Source of the DNA: a virus
DNA: 40,914 bases
Direction: 5' to 3' (one strand)
Virus record (IMG/VR): IMGVR_UViG_3300044612_002484
Span: 1 to 40,914 of that record
The notes beneath the pieces were generated by a model that had not been told where the DNA came from, did not search any database, and saw only the letters and a list, made by a program, of their open reading frames with translations. Shown one piece after another: positions 6,844-19,145 of this stretch (its first letter is position 1; every line of letters begins with the position of its first letter). Made by a program: the position numbers and the translations under genes.

Positions 6844-6886
6844 CACCCCCCCTGCGGGGGGGTGTAGCATAATGCAACACCCCCCC
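6844..6886. repeat. Direct repeat R1: hairpin plus GCATAATGC and C run
   Basis: A hairpin with arms of C and G runs (CACCCCCCC / GGGGGGGTG) is followed by the near-palindrome GTGTAGCATAATGCAACAC and a run of seven Cs. The 20 bases starting GCATAATGCAACAC recur exactly at 9288-9307 behind another hairpin of similar build. R1 and R2 therefore sit ahead of the two rightward transcription units. Confidence 0.7.
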
Positions 6887-6942
6887 GTCGTGGGGGTTCT
6901 GCCATTGTGGCATACCCCGTCGTGGGGGGTATGGTGTTCGTC

Positions 6943-7040: not shown

Positions 7041-7064
7041 GCCGAGATTCTCAAATGCCAAGTG

Positions 7065-7077
7065 TCCAACTGGATAT
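7065..7077 (+). promoter_or_regulatory. TCCAACTGGATAT box 1
   Basis: This motif recurs as TCCAGTTGGATAT at 7127 and TCCGACTGGATAT at 9555, each time upstream of a rightward gene. The core TCCA-N2-TGGA is palindromic. It may be an operator or the upstream part of a rightward promoter whose -10 is GGATAT-like. Confidence 0.5.
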
Positions 7078-7126
7078 TCTTTCCAGAAATCCGCGGCCGA
7101 TTGCCGATACCCCTTGCCATGCTGTA

Positions 7127-7139
7127 TCCAGTTGGATAT
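7127..7139 (+). promoter_or_regulatory. TCCAGTTGGATAT box 2
   Basis: This second copy lies within TATCCA-GT-TGGATA, a six-base-arm palindrome, 71 bases before the start codon of the Gp88-like gene. The corresponding box at 9555 is 63 bases before its gene, so spacing is conserved. The downstream leader also matches the 9.6 kb leader around CACCAC/CAGAAA and the bases just before ATG. Confidence 0.5.
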
Positions 7140-7146
7140 AGTCTTC

Positions 7147-7209: not shown

Positions 7210-8139
7210 ATGTCGACAACTGCCACCATCGTCAAAGCCGTTTCCGCAACACTGCTCGCATATGCCGAAGACTGGAATGGTAAATGCAAAACGCTGCTCG
7301 GCGAGAATGCCAAACTGACAAAACTGCCCGGCGGCGCCCCCGTGCTCGCGCAGGGTGTTTCAATGTCCCCCGGCATTCATTCGCTTTTCGTCAACGTGTG
7401 CGAATTTCTCACGAAAGGTTGTTTCAACTCGTGTGTCCTGCAGTTTGCCGGTCGCACAACCGGCGCCGCAGTCCGTGCAGCTGCTCGAGCACGGACCGGA
7501 CTCTGGCATTTCATGCCCGATGTGTTCTATGCCCGGCTGCGAAATGAGTTGAAAGCTTTTGCCCGACGATGTGCACGGCTGGGCGTGGTCGGATATATCC
7601 GGCTTAACACTGCTTCCGACATCGACCACGGCTCAGAATTGCCCAACATGTTTCCCAACATCGTGTTTTACCACTACACGAAATCAATCAAACGGTGCAT
7701 TCAATATGCCCGGGGGCTTCGACCGGCCAACGAACACTACTCGTTTTCCGTATCTGAGCGAACCACGTTTGACGACGTCCAGCGGCTGGCCGGGCTCCGT
7801 TGCAACCTAATTCTCGTTGTAGACGCGTGGTACCACGCTCAGTATCGGTGCCGAAAGACTGGCGCTAAAGGCCGATATGCCCCCCTCCCGTCGGTCGTGA
7901 CGTTCCAGAATGCGGCCGGTGACACTGTGACACTGCCGGCCGTGGATGGCGACGTGCACGACCTGCGAGTTCCGGAATTCGATGGTAGGGGCGTGGTGGT
8001 CTGCTTGCGGCTAAAAGGGTCGAAAAAAGCCAAGCAGAATGCACGGGACACCGGCTTTGCAAAGCCGTGGCAGCACGGGCTTGAAAAGGTAACGGGTGAG
8101 CTCACCCAAAAAGGGACGATCGTCGTCGACATGAAGTAG
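7210..8139 (+). CDS. Gp88-like phage protein (DUF7227 type)
   Basis: This 309-residue protein matches the phage Gp88 / DUF7227 family, whose function is not established. Visible family features are the opening GENAKLTKLPGG, a cysteine cluster C64-x6-C71-x3-C75 (VCEFLTKGCFNSC), the segment YIRLNTASDID with the following LPNMFPN, and FYHYTKSIKRC; a long C-terminal half ends in TGELTQKGTIVVD. The three cysteines could bind a metal or cluster, but this is a guess. I start at ATG 7210 rather than further upstream, since the leader hairpin and AAGGA-like site lie before it. It is the first gene of the only rightward block between terminase and the early operon and is followed at once by a conserved palindrome module. 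Confidence 0.8.
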   Translation: MSTTATIVKAVSATLLAYAEDWNGKCKTLLGENAKLTKLPGGAPVLAQGVSMSPGIHSLFVNVCEFLTKGCFNSCVLQFAGRTTGAAVRAAARARTGLWHFMPDVFYARLRNELKAFARRCARLGVVGYIRLNTASDIDHGSELPNMFPNIVFYHYTKSIKRCIQYARGLRPANEHYSFSVSERTTFDDVQRLAGLRCNLILVVDAWYHAQYRCRKTGAKGRYAPLPSVVTFQNAAGDTVTLPAVDGDVHDLRVPEFDGRGVVVCLRLKGSKKAKQNARDTGFAKPWQHGLEKVTGELTQKGTIVVDMK

Positions 8140-8143
8140 CCGA

Positions 8144-8196
8144 CGGCCGGCCGTTGTCCCCCCGGGCGCATGCCCGGGGGGCATACGGCATGCCGT
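8144..8196 (+). repeat. Intergenic palindrome module, copy 1
   Basis: The module has a constant left flank of 16 bases (CGGCCGGCCGTTGTCC, 8144-8159), a central palindrome (8158-8181, ten-base C/G arms with GCAT loop) and a constant right flank of 17 bases (8180-8196) containing the palindrome ACGGCATGCCGT. It begins four bases after the stop of the Gp88-like gene. Copy 2 at 8398-8456 has the same flanks but an unrelated central palindrome. Confidence 0.75.
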
Positions 8197-8229
8197 CGGC
8201 ATGCATTCACAACCCCGGGGAGTTTTGCC

Positions 8230-8397
8230 ATGTGCGATGAATTCGACGATATGCCCACCGAGCTCGAGATCCTAGAAACCTATGCCGACATGGGTGAGCC
8301 CACGGCCGTTGCCGAGCTCGCGCGACGTCGTGCGGCCGGTGAAAAGGTCCAGCCGGCCGGGCTAATTGAAGCCCTAGTTGGCCGCGGTTTTCTGTAA
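8230..8397 (+). CDS. Small acidic helical protein, unknown
   Basis: This 55-residue protein begins MCDEFDDMPTELEIL and is acidic and probably all helical, with a basic RRRAAGEK turn and a C-terminal LIEALVGRGFL. I do not recognise it. The start at ATG 8230 is supported by GGGGAG upstream and by the parallel GGAGGCTTTTCCC before the next gene. Its first residues, CDEFDD, and the later AELARRRAAGE helix suggest a small binding protein. It lies between two copies of the palindrome module, so it is probably expressed with the Gp88-like gene or separately tuned by the hairpins. Confidence 0.55.
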   Translation: MCDEFDDMPTELEILETYADMGEPTAVAELARRRAAGEKVQPAGLIEALVGRGFL

Positions 8398-8456
8398 CGG
8401 CCGGCCGTTGTCCGCACCAGGTGCTCGAGCACCTGGTGCGGCATACGGCATGCCGT
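8398..8456 (+). repeat. Intergenic palindrome module, copy 2
   Basis: The left flank (8398-8413) and right flank (8440-8456) are identical to copy 1, but the centre is a perfect 26-base palindrome (8414-8439) built on CACCAGGTGCTCGAG and its complement. It starts at the base after the stop of the 55-residue gene. Conservation of position and flanks with a fully replaced but still perfect palindrome points to selection on the folded form. Confidence 0.75.
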
Positions 8457-8527: not shown

Positions 8528-8731
8528 ATGCTACGTGCCGAATGCTGTGCCGATAGTGGCGCCTGCGATTGTGTCGCATGCCGGCCAGATCCGTTGACGG
8601 CCGCCCACGTGGTGGCCGTCTACGCTCGTGCTGGCAATCCCCTGGACGTCGACGACGTCCAGGTGCTCGAGCACATGACGACGGCCCAACTGGTCGACCA
8701 GCTGGCATTCCTGGAAGACTTCCAGGGGTAG
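8528..8731 (+). CDS. Small Cys-rich protein, unknown
   Basis: This 67-residue protein has five cysteines in its first 18 residues (CCADSGACDCVAC), which could bind zinc, then a helical acidic part with LEHMTTAQLVDQLAFLEDF. I do not recognise it. The ATG at 8528 follows CTGGAGGCTTTTCCC, a good ribosome-binding site matching the one before the previous gene. It is the last gene of the first rightward unit and is followed six bases later by a long nested inverted repeat. Confidence 0.55.
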   Translation: MLRAECCADSGACDCVACRPDPLTAAHVVAVYARAGNPLDVDDVQVLEHMTTAQLVDQLAFLEDFQG

Positions 8732-8736
8732 ACGTT

Positions 8737-8796
8737 GACCAGGTGCACGCATGCGACGCCGGCCCAGCTGGGCCGGCCGGCGCCGTGCACCTGGTC
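8737..8796 (+). terminator. Nested inverted repeat after the third small gene
   Basis: Outer arms GACCAGGTGCACG (8737-8749) and CGTGCACCTGGTC (8784-8796) are perfectly complementary over 13 bases. Inside lies a perfect 20-base palindrome (8758-8777). It begins six bases past the stop codon at 8731, so it is placed like a terminator or 3' stabiliser, though no T tract follows. Confidence 0.5.
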
Positions 8797-8898
8797 GATC
8801 GGCAACACTGCGCGGCCGCGGCCGCACAGCATGCGCCCACATGCCCGTACACTTCCGACGGCTGGCAGACTGCCGGCCGCGGCCGCACATGGCCATAG

Positions 8899-9006
8899 GT
8901 GACGCGTGAGCCCGTAGGGGCTCACGCAGGCGCCGGCCGTGCACGGCTGCGCACATAACAGCACAACACATTCCCGCGACGCGTCACATGAGCCCCTACG
9001 GGCTCG
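8899..9006. repeat. Pair of mirror-loop hairpins with flanking inverted words
   Basis: TGAGCCC-GTAG-GGGCTCA (8907-8924) and TGAGCCC-CTAC-GGGCTC (8989-9006) are two hairpins with the same stem and complementary loops, so each is close to the reverse complement of the other. GTGACGCG (8899) and CGCGTCAC (8980) add a further inverted pair. The loops could pair with each other. Confidence 0.6.
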
Positions 9007-9261
9007 TGCACGGCCGGGCATGCCACAGCACAACACGAGCGACGCCGGCCGCACAGCGGCCGGCCGGGCTCGTGCACGATCGACAACGGAGCAGCCGACC
9101 AGGTGGGCCGGCCGATTGTGCACGTAGAAAATCCGGCCGGCAGACTTGCCCGACTGCGCGCGCACAACTCGAGACACGACCGACGACACGAAAAACGGGA
9201 AGCGGGCATGCATGCCCGGGGATTGTGCACGCATTCCGCGGCCGTCGGCCACGGCATGCGG

Positions 9262-9308
9262 CACACCCCCCTTGCGGGTGGTGTGCGGCATAATGCAACA
9301 CCCCCCCC
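9262..9308. repeat. Direct repeat R2: hairpin plus GCATAATGC and C run
   Basis: A hairpin with CACACC / GGTGTG arms is followed by GGCATAATGCAACAC and a C run. Twenty bases are identical to R1 at 6867-6886. R2 lies ahead of the second rightward unit, as R1 lies ahead of the first. Confidence 0.7.
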
Positions 9309-9337
9309 AACGGCACCCCCCACCCCCCCTCGGGCAC

Positions 9338-9363
9338 CCCCTCCCCCCTGCCGGGGGGAGGGG
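9338..9363. terminator. C/G-run stem-loop
   Basis: CCCCTCCCCCC and GGGGGGAGGGG form an 11-base perfect stem with the loop TGCC. It sits between R2 and the second rightward promoter and may insulate the downstream unit. The uninterrupted G and C runs could also form a quadruplex or i-motif. Confidence 0.4.
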
Positions 9364-9554
9364 TCTGCCCCCCCCATCAAGGAGGGTAGAGAAGAACCAA
9401 ACTTTGAAAGCCTCCTGCTAGTGAATTCTTCTGACATTTTTTTTTGAAAACCGCAATGCCGTTTTGCGGCGATGCTTCAACGCGGCTGGGCAAAAGACGC
9501 CCCACAATTCTTTTCGGAATTCACCAGAAAAACTGCTCCAGAAAACCCAGTATT

Positions 9555-9567
9555 TCCGACTGGATAT
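9555..9567 (+). promoter_or_regulatory. TCCGACTGGATAT box 3
   Basis: This copy differs by one base from the box at 7065. It lies 63 bases before ATG 9630, similar to the 71 bases between box 2 and the Gp88-like gene. The leader that follows shares CACCAC, CAGAAA and a CC before ATG with that gene. Confidence 0.5.
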
Positions 9568-9629
9568 TTGTCGGCCATCGCGTAATAATCTCGCTCAGTT
9601 CCACACCACCACGCAGAAAGGTTCCAGCC

Positions 9630-12337: not shown

Positions 12338-12775
12338 CTAGTCAATCGAAAACTCGCGGCCGCACACTATGTCCAATGCAGTGCTGAAATCGCATTCAAC
12401 TGAAGGACCGATCCCGGCAGATGTAACGTGCTGCAGTTTCACTTTCGCAACATAGTTGCCGTGTTCGTCTTTGATTGGATCGCAATCCCGTTGCCACCAA
12501 ATCAACACAAATACGCCACTGTCTGGAGACAAAAACCCGGCTACCTTGCCGAGTTGTATTAAGCGCGCCAGCAGAGGAAGAATCCTTTTTTGTGATGGCT
12601 TGACCTGCTCACCAGCGATCTTTTCTTCAACGAACCGAAGGCAATTCCGTGATGACTTCCACACCACGTAATCGATGTCGATGCCGTCGAATCTGACTGG
12701 CTCATTGTCGTGAAGCCATTGTCCGATTTTGCTCGCCGACTGATGAAATTCTTTTCTGTAAATCGTCTGCGTCAT
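12338..12775 (-). CDS. Putative PD-(D/E)xK nuclease-like protein
   Basis: This 145-residue protein is not a family I can name, but it has a possible PD-(D/E)xK core: D33/D35 in GIDIDYVVW, then E50 and K52 in RFVEEK, with Q57 and a following helix LLARLIQLGK. The N-terminal YRKEFHQSASKIGQWLH helix and C-terminal strands (VFVLIWWQ, YVAKVKLQHV) would complete a small nuclease fold. ATG 12775 overlaps the stop of the ParB-methyltransferase gene (ATGA), so the two are made together. The pairing recalls a modification enzyme with its partner nuclease, but this is inference. Confidence 0.5.
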   Translation of the reverse strand: MTQTIYRKEFHQSASKIGQWLHDNEPVRFDGIDIDYVVWKSSRNCLRFVEEKIAGEQVKPSQKRILPLLARLIQLGKVAGFLSPDSGVFVLIWWQRDCDPIKDEHGNYVAKVKLQHVTSAGIGPSVECDFSTALDIVCGREFSID

Positions 12776-14028
12776 CGTTTGCCGTCCTGGTGTGAGCCGT
12801 TGTCGGAACCAATGAAATGCCGCCCGCACTCGTTGGCGGCCCTGCCGAATGACCCGGAGCCGGCAAACGGATCAACGACCATCTCGCCGGCTTCGGTGAG
12901 GGACTCGATGATGGGCTTGACTTCGCCGAGCCCCTGCGCCCACTCGTGAAGGTCTTTGCGTGGTGGCGTGCCAACGATCACGTCATCGATGTAGTGCTTG
13001 GTGCTTCGCCGCTGGTTCACAAACCACACGATCGGCTTCCACCTGACCTGCACCCACTTTCCCGGCAGCTGCTGCGGCATGGCACTGTGCGTCAGAGCAA
13101 AACACCACCAGTATTTGAGGTGCGGCGACATGGCCGCGATCACCTCACCAAGGGTGGCTTGACCGCAGTACGCGACCAGCGAGCCGCCGGGCTTCAGCTT
13201 GTCGGCAGCCCACAACGCGAGCTCGCCGTACAACTTCGTGGCACTGTCGCCATACGGAGGATCAGTCAGCACCAGGTCGATTGAGCCGCGAGCGACGTCG
13301 GCGAGAACAGACTGAAAGTCTCCGCGACGCATGTCGAATATCAAGCCACCGGATTGCTGTATCGCAGACAGCGTTTCGGATTCCGCGTCTTTTCTCTTTG
13401 CTTTGCGAAGCTCAGAGTAAGCCCGACTGACTTTACCGGTGCGGTCCATCTCCTCGACCAGATGGCCGTACCTTTCCGGCTCAGACCGAGCAGCCTCGTC
13501 AACGGCCTTCGCTTTCTCGTAGGTGCGGCGATCGACACCGCAAGCGGCCGCCGCCACCGACGACGTGCGCTTTGACTCGTCGCGAGGCTGCGAAAAGGTG
13601 GGGGAAGTTCCCCCACCTTTTTTGGGCCGGCCGGGCGATTGCTTTTCTGCCGCCTCCGCAATCGGCCGCTGAAACTCCTCGATCTTTTTGCCGAGCGCCA
13701 CCATCTCGCTTGGCTTAAACGGCTCGCGGCAAACATTCTCGTCACGCTCGGCCAGCACTCGCTGCCGCAGTTCCGACAGACTCACGGCCGTGACAGCCGG
13801 GATCGTGAGCATGCCAAGTTGCTTGCATGCCTCAAGTCGCCTCCCGCCGACAAGCAGTCGGTTATCGCCATCAATGACGACCGGATGCAGCAGCCCGATT
13901 TCGGTGATCGACTGCTTGAGTGGCTCAAGGTCGCCAAGGTCTTTCCGATAACGATCCACAACGACGATCTGGTGGATGGCAACAGGCTGGCTGTTGCTGT
14001 GCTTCTTTAAAACGCTCGTGTCGCTCAC
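12772..14028 (-). CDS. ParB-like / DNA methyltransferase fusion
   Basis: This 418-residue protein joins two domains. Residues about 16-120 are a ParB/sulfiredoxin-like domain: LEPLKQSITEIGLLHPVVI, then LLVGGRRLEACKQLG and ENVCREPFKPSEMVALG. Residues about 225-415 are a DNA methyltransferase of the N6-adenine/N4-cytosine type, with the catalytic TDPPYG (DPPY 256-259) and the SAM-binding loop VDPFAGSGSFG (386-396). The linker contains Pro/Lys/Gly and HTH-like AACGVDRRTYEKAKAV. The enzyme would methylate phage or host DNA, probably to avoid host restriction. It starts with ATG 14028 and is translationally coupled to the nuclease-like gene after it. Confidence 0.85.
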   Translation of the reverse strand: MSDTSVLKKHSNSQPVAIHQIVVVDRYRKDLGDLEPLKQSITEIGLLHPVVIDGDNRLLVGGRRLEACKQLGMLTIPAVTAVSLSELRQRVLAERDENVCREPFKPSEMVALGKKIEEFQRPIAEAAEKQSPGRPKKGGGTSPTFSQPRDESKRTSSVAAAACGVDRRTYEKAKAVDEAARSEPERYGHLVEEMDRTGKVSRAYSELRKAKRKDAESETLSAIQQSGGLIFDMRRGDFQSVLADVARGSIDLVLTDPPYGDSATKLYGELALWAADKLKPGGSLVAYCGQATLGEVIAAMSPHLKYWWCFALTHSAMPQQLPGKWVQVRWKPIVWFVNQRRSTKHYIDDVIVGTPPRKDLHEWAQGLGEVKPIIESLTEAGEMVVDPFAGSGSFGRAANECGRHFIGSDNGSHQDGKR

Positions 14029-18188: not shown

Positions 18189-19145
18189 ATGCTGGTTCGC
18201 TCTCTCCTCCTCGACCGATACGCTCCCCACCACATGCTGGCCGACCGCACGGTCTTGCTGTACATGCAGACCCTCGACCGGTTCCGCGATTACCTCGCGA
18301 CGGTGCCAGGCCGAGTCGATCCTGAGCCCACGCTCGACGACCTCGACGACCTGGTCGTGTCTAAGTTCCTGCGGTATCGCGAGACCACGCCGCACCGCGG
18401 GAAAATCTGTGCCCGCAACAGCGTCCTCAAGGATCGCACGCAGCTGATCGCCATCTGGTCCTACGCAAGTAAGAAGAAGTTGAAAAACAGCAGCGGTGAG
18501 CATGTCGAGTGGCCGTCGCTGCCGCCGTATCGTGCGATTGAGCGCGTGCCGCGAGCGTATTCATCCGACGACGTGGCGAAGCTCATTCGACTCGCAAAAA
18601 CGCGGAGCGACTCCTACAAGGGGCCGATCGCTGGCGTGCCAAACGCGTGGTGGTGGTCGACGCAAATCTACGTTTCGTGGCTGACGGCCGAGCGGCTGGG
18701 GGCAATGCTGGCCCTGCGATGGGAGCAGGTCGACTTTGATGCCCGCGAGATCACGTTCCTCGGTGCGACACGCAAAGGAAAAACCCGCGACATCGTCCGC
18801 GGAATCAACCAGCAGGCCGCGGACATGCTGCTGGCCGGCCGCCGCCGGCCGGAGGATCTCGTCTGGCCGTGGGATCGACAGCCGTCCTCAATTTGGTCGT
18901 CCCTCAAGGTGCTGTGCAAACGTGCCGGCGTCACCTACCGTGGCTTCCACGGCTTCCGCAAAGCGTCCTTGAGCTACTACCACGCAGCTGGTGGAGATGC
19001 CACGCGGCTGGCTGATCACGACCGGCCGTCCACAACTCGCAAAAGCTATTTCGATCCCGGCATTGTGCGAGACGGGCCGACGGCACCGGACCTGCTGCCA
19101 CCGCTCGATCTGGGCGAAGAGCCGCCAGAGCGGCCGGCGGCGTGA
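18189..19145 (+). CDS. int: Tyrosine recombinase integrase
   Basis: This 318-residue integrase inserts and, with a directionality factor, excises the phage genome. It has a core-binding N-terminal domain (DRTVLLYMQTLDRFRDYLATVPG) and a catalytic domain with the expected residues: Arg I R169 (TAERLGAMLALRW), the beta-hairpin Lys K196 or K198 (TRKGKTRD), H254-x-x-R257 (HGFRKAS), H277 and the nucleophile Y287 (TTRKSYFDP). Length is normal. ATG 18189 follows AGGACGTCGCC. It is divergent from the excisionase-like gene and is the main evidence for a temperate life style. Confidence 0.9.
   Translation: MLVRSLLLDRYAPHHMLADRTVLLYMQTLDRFRDYLATVPGRVDPEPTLDDLDDLVVSKFLRYRETTPHRGKICARNSVLKDRTQLIAIWSYASKKKLKNSSGEHVEWPSLPPYRAIERVPRAYSSDDVAKLIRLAKTRSDSYKGPIAGVPNAWWWSTQIYVSWLTAERLGAMLALRWEQVDFDAREITFLGATRKGKTRDIVRGINQQAADMLLAGRRRPEDLVWPWDRQPSSIWSSLKVLCKRAGVTYRGFHGFRKASLSYYHAAGGDATRLADHDRPSTTRKSYFDPGIVRDGPTAPDLLPPLDLGEEPPERPAA

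Follow-up and report, generated by a model that had tools for sequence, protein, structure and literature searches.

A covarying hairpin at stop codons in a plus-strand operon of a small phage group

A hairpin of 22-25 bp whose base is constrained in sequence and whose tip is constrained mainly as a helix recurs in the intergenic gaps of a phage operon, and our comparison of related viruses suggests that it acts in mRNA. The window, by which we mean the whole stretch of DNA analyzed, is a 40.9-kb virus record (IMG/VR IMGVR_UViG_3300044612_002484) with head genes on the minus strand in its left part. The operon lies on the plus strand downstream of a promoter-like site and comprises a GP88-family gene, a 55-aa gene, and a 67-aa gene (Table 1), the latter two with good ribosome-binding sites. 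The GP88 start codon was taken from homologues. No protein family matched the 55-aa gene; homologues of the 67-aa gene occur in the related records L003, L004, L008, L012, L013, L014, and L018. Elsewhere in the window, positions 12772-14028 encode a ParB-like domain fused to an N6/N4 DNA methyltransferase, and a 13-bp AAAAGGTGGGGGA/TCCCCCACCTTTT hairpin lies within this reading frame (13593-13621).

Table 1. Features of the operon region, with positions in the window.
Feature	Position	Strand	Remarks
Promoter-like site TTGCCA-17-TATAGT, overlapping the TATCCAGTTGGATA palindrome	7114..7142	+	Upstream of the operon
GP88-family gene, operon gene 1	7210..8139	+	PF17338, E 2.6e-26
Module 1: flank, CCCCGGGC-GCAT-GCCCGGGG center, flank	8143..8196	+	8139-8200 including the outer GCCG/CGGC pairs
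55-aa gene, between both modules	8230..8397	+	In the window, L003, and L004 only
Module 2: flank, GCACCAGGTGC-TCGA-GCACCTGGTGC center, flank	8397..8456	+	First base shared with the end of the stop codon
Second hairpin, 12-bp stem, GTG loop	8468..8494	+	11 nt past module 2; in all relatives
67-aa gene, operon gene 3	8528..8731	+	Open reading frame and homologues
Branched long hairpin behind the 67-aa gene	8736..8800	+	Partly covarying: three pairs changed on both sides, some broken

The element, which we call a module, is present twice in the window, each copy consisting of a center between two flanks. An earlier note on this DNA had described flanks of 16 and 17 bases that match exactly in both copies; the identity and the right-hand length stand, while the left flank is also 17 nt long. 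The left flank, ACGGCCGGCCGTTGTCC, lies at 8143-8159 and 8397-8413, the right flank, GGCATACGGCATGCCGT, at 8180-8196 and 8440-8456, and each has just these two exact occurrences in the window. With up to three mismatches allowed, we found four left-flank and three right-flank matches compared with 0.45 and 0.19 expected; no shuffle equalled the observed number, part of the excess being self-overlap of the near-palindromic flanks. Both centers had been called perfect palindromes, which is true of module 2, whose center (8412-8441) holds a perfect palindrome of 26 nt, or 30 nt counting the CC/GG of the flanks; the center of module 1 (8158-8181) is instead an inverted repeat of 10 bp that forms a stem, with GCAT as its 4-nt loop. 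As the note had observed, both modules begin directly at a stop codon.

A pattern scan revealed a double module in contig 3300010885_041081 (L003), and protein-level searches that started from GP88, the 55-aa protein, and a downstream 75-aa protein yielded more records: L004, L008, L012, L013, L014, L015, and L018. These eight related IMG/VR contigs carry the module at the same place, twice in L003 and L004, as in the window, and once in the other six, and in all relatives the modules lie at stop codons of co-directed genes. Counting the window, there are 12 copies in nine phage records; ten are distinct, the L015 module being the same as that of L014 and the L018 module the same as that of L013. 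A covariance model detected no further strong copy in any of the module-bearing records. Similar DNA was absent from 50,697 deposited phages, among which GP88 protein matches were distant only and came from phages of Pelagibacter and Roseobacter. In the genome collection, a search with the GP88 profile turned up no relative, and comparisons of terminase, portal, and capsid pointed to no host. The module-bearing phages are a small, undescribed group. Given the homologues in eight other virus records, the flanks are not chance matches within one genome, a possibility the earlier note had raised. Its claim that the two centers are unrelated in sequence describes the window, where they differ, but does not hold throughout, as the centers of L008 (GCCCGGGC) and L012 (GCCCTGGTGC) bridge both types.

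The note had proposed searching related phages for the flanks and asking whether the enclosed centers vary and remain palindromic. Indeed, the centers change yet stay fully paired in all ten distinct modules, mostly via compensatory change, and no homologous locus has an unpaired center. The flanks pair with each other, so that each module forms a single hairpin with two offset bulges. From flank to flank, the basal stem consists of 5 bp, a 2x2 mismatch, 7 bp, and the two offset single-nucleotide bulges; above it stands an upper stem of 10-13 bp with a four-base loop at the top. RNA folding puts the two bulges on opposite sides, two pairs apart; the 5' bulge is variable (U, A, or C), and the 3' bulge is invariably U. 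In an alignment of nine modules (module 2 of the window, with one extra base pair, was left out), 99% of the cells are paired and six pairs have changed on both sides, with 14 such cells. None of 500 shuffles scored as high in pairing and covariation, and pairing falls to 31-44% when the partners are slid along the alignment. One flank pair covaries as well, from U-A to C-G in L012-L014, with U-G in L008. Self-folding of each flank is a worse fit, because a left-flank A-U pair is then lost in three sequences. As a control, we scanned genomes and viral contigs with a degenerate inner-flank pattern and took matches outside the clade; in this sample of the matches listed, about 220 distinct and unrelated stretches, none has a fully paired center. 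On this comparative evidence, the hairpin fold is maintained through compensatory change and the module appears to be a real RNA element, in keeping with the selection on folded form that had been suggested.

Selection on form and not sequence, as that suggestion was worded, is nevertheless too strong: the flanks, and partly the centers, are more conserved than fourfold synonymous sites. Between the window and L004, 63 of 68 flank bases are identical, compared with 48% of fourfold sites in GP88, 56% in the 55-aa gene, and 59% in the 75-aa gene; the two other genes were added because fourfold sites of GP88 exaggerate the neutral divergence of its two alleles. Between the window and L003, the figures are 67 of 68 flank bases, with fourfold identities of 54% (GP88) and 80% (55-aa gene). 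Because the flanks exceed fourfold sites in conservation, the base of the hairpin is under constraint in its sequence, beyond what pairing demands. The tip is not free either, because centers of the module 1 type are fairly conserved (16-20 of 20 bases); its changes are slow and come in pairs.

The kinds of change also bear on whether the module works as RNA or as DNA. The 11 copies compared contain 257 pairs: 250 Watson-Crick, five G-U (four of them independent), no A-C, and two A-A, both at the outermost position. All four independent one-sided changes give G-U on the plus strand and none gives A-C, an argument that rests on four changes and has a chance of about 1 in 16. The folding energy of the plus strand equals or betters that of the minus strand in nine of the ten modules. 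Plus-strand RNA is favored over a folded-DNA site, because every one-sided change gives G-U when read on the coding strand. This supports the RNA control element that the note had offered and disfavors its other candidate, a site for a DNA-hairpin nuclease, since the one-sided changes are of a kind tolerated in RNA and no Y1 transposase was found. We also rejected a REP/RAYT system, the Y1 transposase family PF01797 having no match in four records; the transposase could be in the host. More broadly, the module might be a protein-binding or single-strand-folding DNA site for replication, packaging, or recombination, its transcript being incidental. The locus does lie within the palindrome hotspot of the genome, the flanks are near-palindromic, and a conserved non-coding stretch of ~0.6-0.7 kb follows. 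We consider this reading unlikely, however: flank changes disrupt the self-palindromes and preserve flank-to-flank pairing, the modules are placed at stop codons of the coding strand, where their one-sided changes give G-U, and a search for a GC-skew switch at the locus found none.

The hotspot spans 7.0-9.4 kb. Seven of the 15 strongest hairpins fall between 8.1 and 9.4 kb, and perfect palindromes of at least 8 nt number 22 at 8731-9620 compared with 5.3 expected. The palindrome-rich non-coding stretch (8732-9440) is kept in seven related phages, ends in an invariant TCTGACATTTTTTTTT, and might encode a long structured RNA or serve as an origin or in packaging; it is C-rich, so that comparing plus- and minus-strand folding is uninformative. 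Within it, L012 carries about a dozen 10-nt tandem repeats of the ACACCGCACA type (L012:2262-2380), and other relatives have two to three such units or related repeats. On either side of the operon, at 6844-6935 and 9263-9363, are C-run/G-run hairpins (ACCCCC...GGGGGT) with a shared GCATAATGCAACACCCCCCC block, which differ among relatives in number and sequence. An operator-like palindrome, TATCC-N4-GGATA, occurs in three copies (7063-7076, 7125-7138, and 9553-9566) at promoter-like sites and is conserved in relatives; these copies are probably sites of a phage regulator controlling both transcripts. All related loci show the arrangement of promoter-like site and palindrome seen here upstream of the operon.

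What might such a hairpin do between genes? We give about an even chance to an intercistronic mRNA hairpin that processes or protects the ends of upstream messages. The modules would be copies of one structured RNA in the polycistronic plus-strand transcript of the GP88, 55-aa, and 67-aa genes. The hairpin could be read in the mRNA by an RNase III-type double-strand-specific nuclease or by another RNA-binding protein that reads the conserved base and bulges; this reader would separate the cistrons and/or leave the hairpin to protect the 3' end of the upstream message, making the mRNA level of each gene separately adjustable. We favor a processing or 3'-end-protection site because there is no U-tract, the setting is an operon, and the bulged base is conserved. 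With 22-25 paired positions that covary, between co-directed genes, the modules exceed the length of at least ~20 bp required of an RNase III-type hairpin. On the other hand, a generic RNase III site would not need so conserved a base. No RNase III-like domain turned up in the phage records searched, and the nuclease would thus be a host enzyme. A bolder proposal, which we hold to be doubtful, is a new class of phage cis-acting RNA: a specific RNA-binding protein or nuclease, of the phage or of the host, would recognize the conserved bulged base, the interchangeable tip would prevent neighboring copies from pairing or recombining with each other, and the element would also offer a seam for gene exchange in the operon.

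The main rival is partial termination, in which hairpins without a U-tract, alone or clustered, stop some polymerases and step expression down the operon. A canonical intrinsic terminator was rejected, as no U-tract directly follows the GC-rich stem. Strong GC-rich hairpins at stop codons, with module 2 trailed by a second hairpin, are what partial termination would lead one to expect, and for several bacteria a terminator role has been proposed for hairpins free of a U-trail, often clustered near the stop codon (PMC8355165). That study found no conserved sequence near its hairpins, whereas the modules have a conserved base. The tails after the modules, CGGCATGCATTC and TGACGTCATGCC, are GC-rich and lack a U run, none of the terminator-like sites of the region falls at a module, and two further genes with good ribosome-binding sites lie downstream. 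We regard partial termination as possible, though well short of an even chance.

The earlier note had seen the palindrome as a variable slot; instead, the gene between the modules is the variable part. In the window, L003, and L004, the order is GP88, module, 55-aa gene, module, second hairpin, and 67-aa gene. In L008, L013, L014, L015, and L018 there is one module without the 55-aa gene, and in L008 this module has the left context of module 1 and the right context of module 2. In L012, a single module is followed by an ASCH-like gene (L012:1441-1797; Pfam ASCH E 0.006, below the cut-off), with no second module; the leader of this gene resembles that of the 55-aa gene. The inter-module gene is therefore present in three phages, absent in five, and replaced in one. 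This pattern, together with the fixed ends, variable tip, post-stop position, and bulged bases of the modules, recalls integron-like cassette sites, folded single-stranded DNA at which a recombinase inserts or excises small genes, and the window has a tyrosine-recombinase-like gene at 18189-19145, below the family cut-off; matches to this family (PF00589) occur in three of four records, all below the cut-off. We find such sites very unlikely here. Homologous recombination between modules can, we infer, account for the loss of the 55-aa gene with no need for a dedicated recombinase; no module lies behind the replacing gene of L012; and the L008 record has a module but no such recombinase match. 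With one or two strong copies per record, the modules do not form an integron attC array. As intercistronic mRNA hairpins, the modules would serve as homologous seams, and gain, loss, or exchange of the intervening gene would be a side effect.

In Rfam, nothing matched at or above the gathering threshold, and there were sub-threshold matches only, under relaxed settings. The module thus offers a comparative case that is absent from Rfam, with ten distinct copies in nine phage records combining a base fixed in sequence with a tip fixed in shape, and it connects intercistronic hairpins with the turnover of genes in phage operons. As a short element that is easy to clone, it allows processing, protection, and termination to be distinguished.

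Among known systems, the R-sites of T7 are intercistronic RNase III processing hairpins of phage mRNAs. The modules resemble them as irregular stems roughly two helical turns long that lie between genes within a phage operon and are maintained as structure; unlike them, the modules are conserved in sequence at the base, vary only at the tip, and are specific to one phage clade. Integron attC sites (PMC2727003) likewise have conserved ends, a variable terminal structure, extrahelical bases, and a position after the stop codon of a small gene, but the modules come with no array and no integrase above the family cut-off, and the evidence points to RNA. In cluster K mycobacteriophages, the extended start-associated sequences (ESAS) consist of two imperfect inverted repeats of 17 bp around a spacer of 4-13 bp; they lie upstream of start codons beside a 13-bp repeat, at no more than about half of the 11-19 sites in a genome, and are not described as a covarying hairpin (PMC3203893). 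The modules share with ESAS the paired 17-bp repeats, the variable spacer, the nearness to phage genes, and, in some phages, partly symmetrical halves (PMC3203893). In contrast to repeats upstream of translation starts, they begin at stop codons, are present in one or two copies, and have a center of 20-26 nt that is itself a stem. Finally, the clustered U-less hairpins argued to terminate transcription (PMC8355165) are also stable hairpins directly after stop codons, some of them paired and without a U-trail; unlike these, the modules have a conserved base and lie between co-directed genes of one operon.
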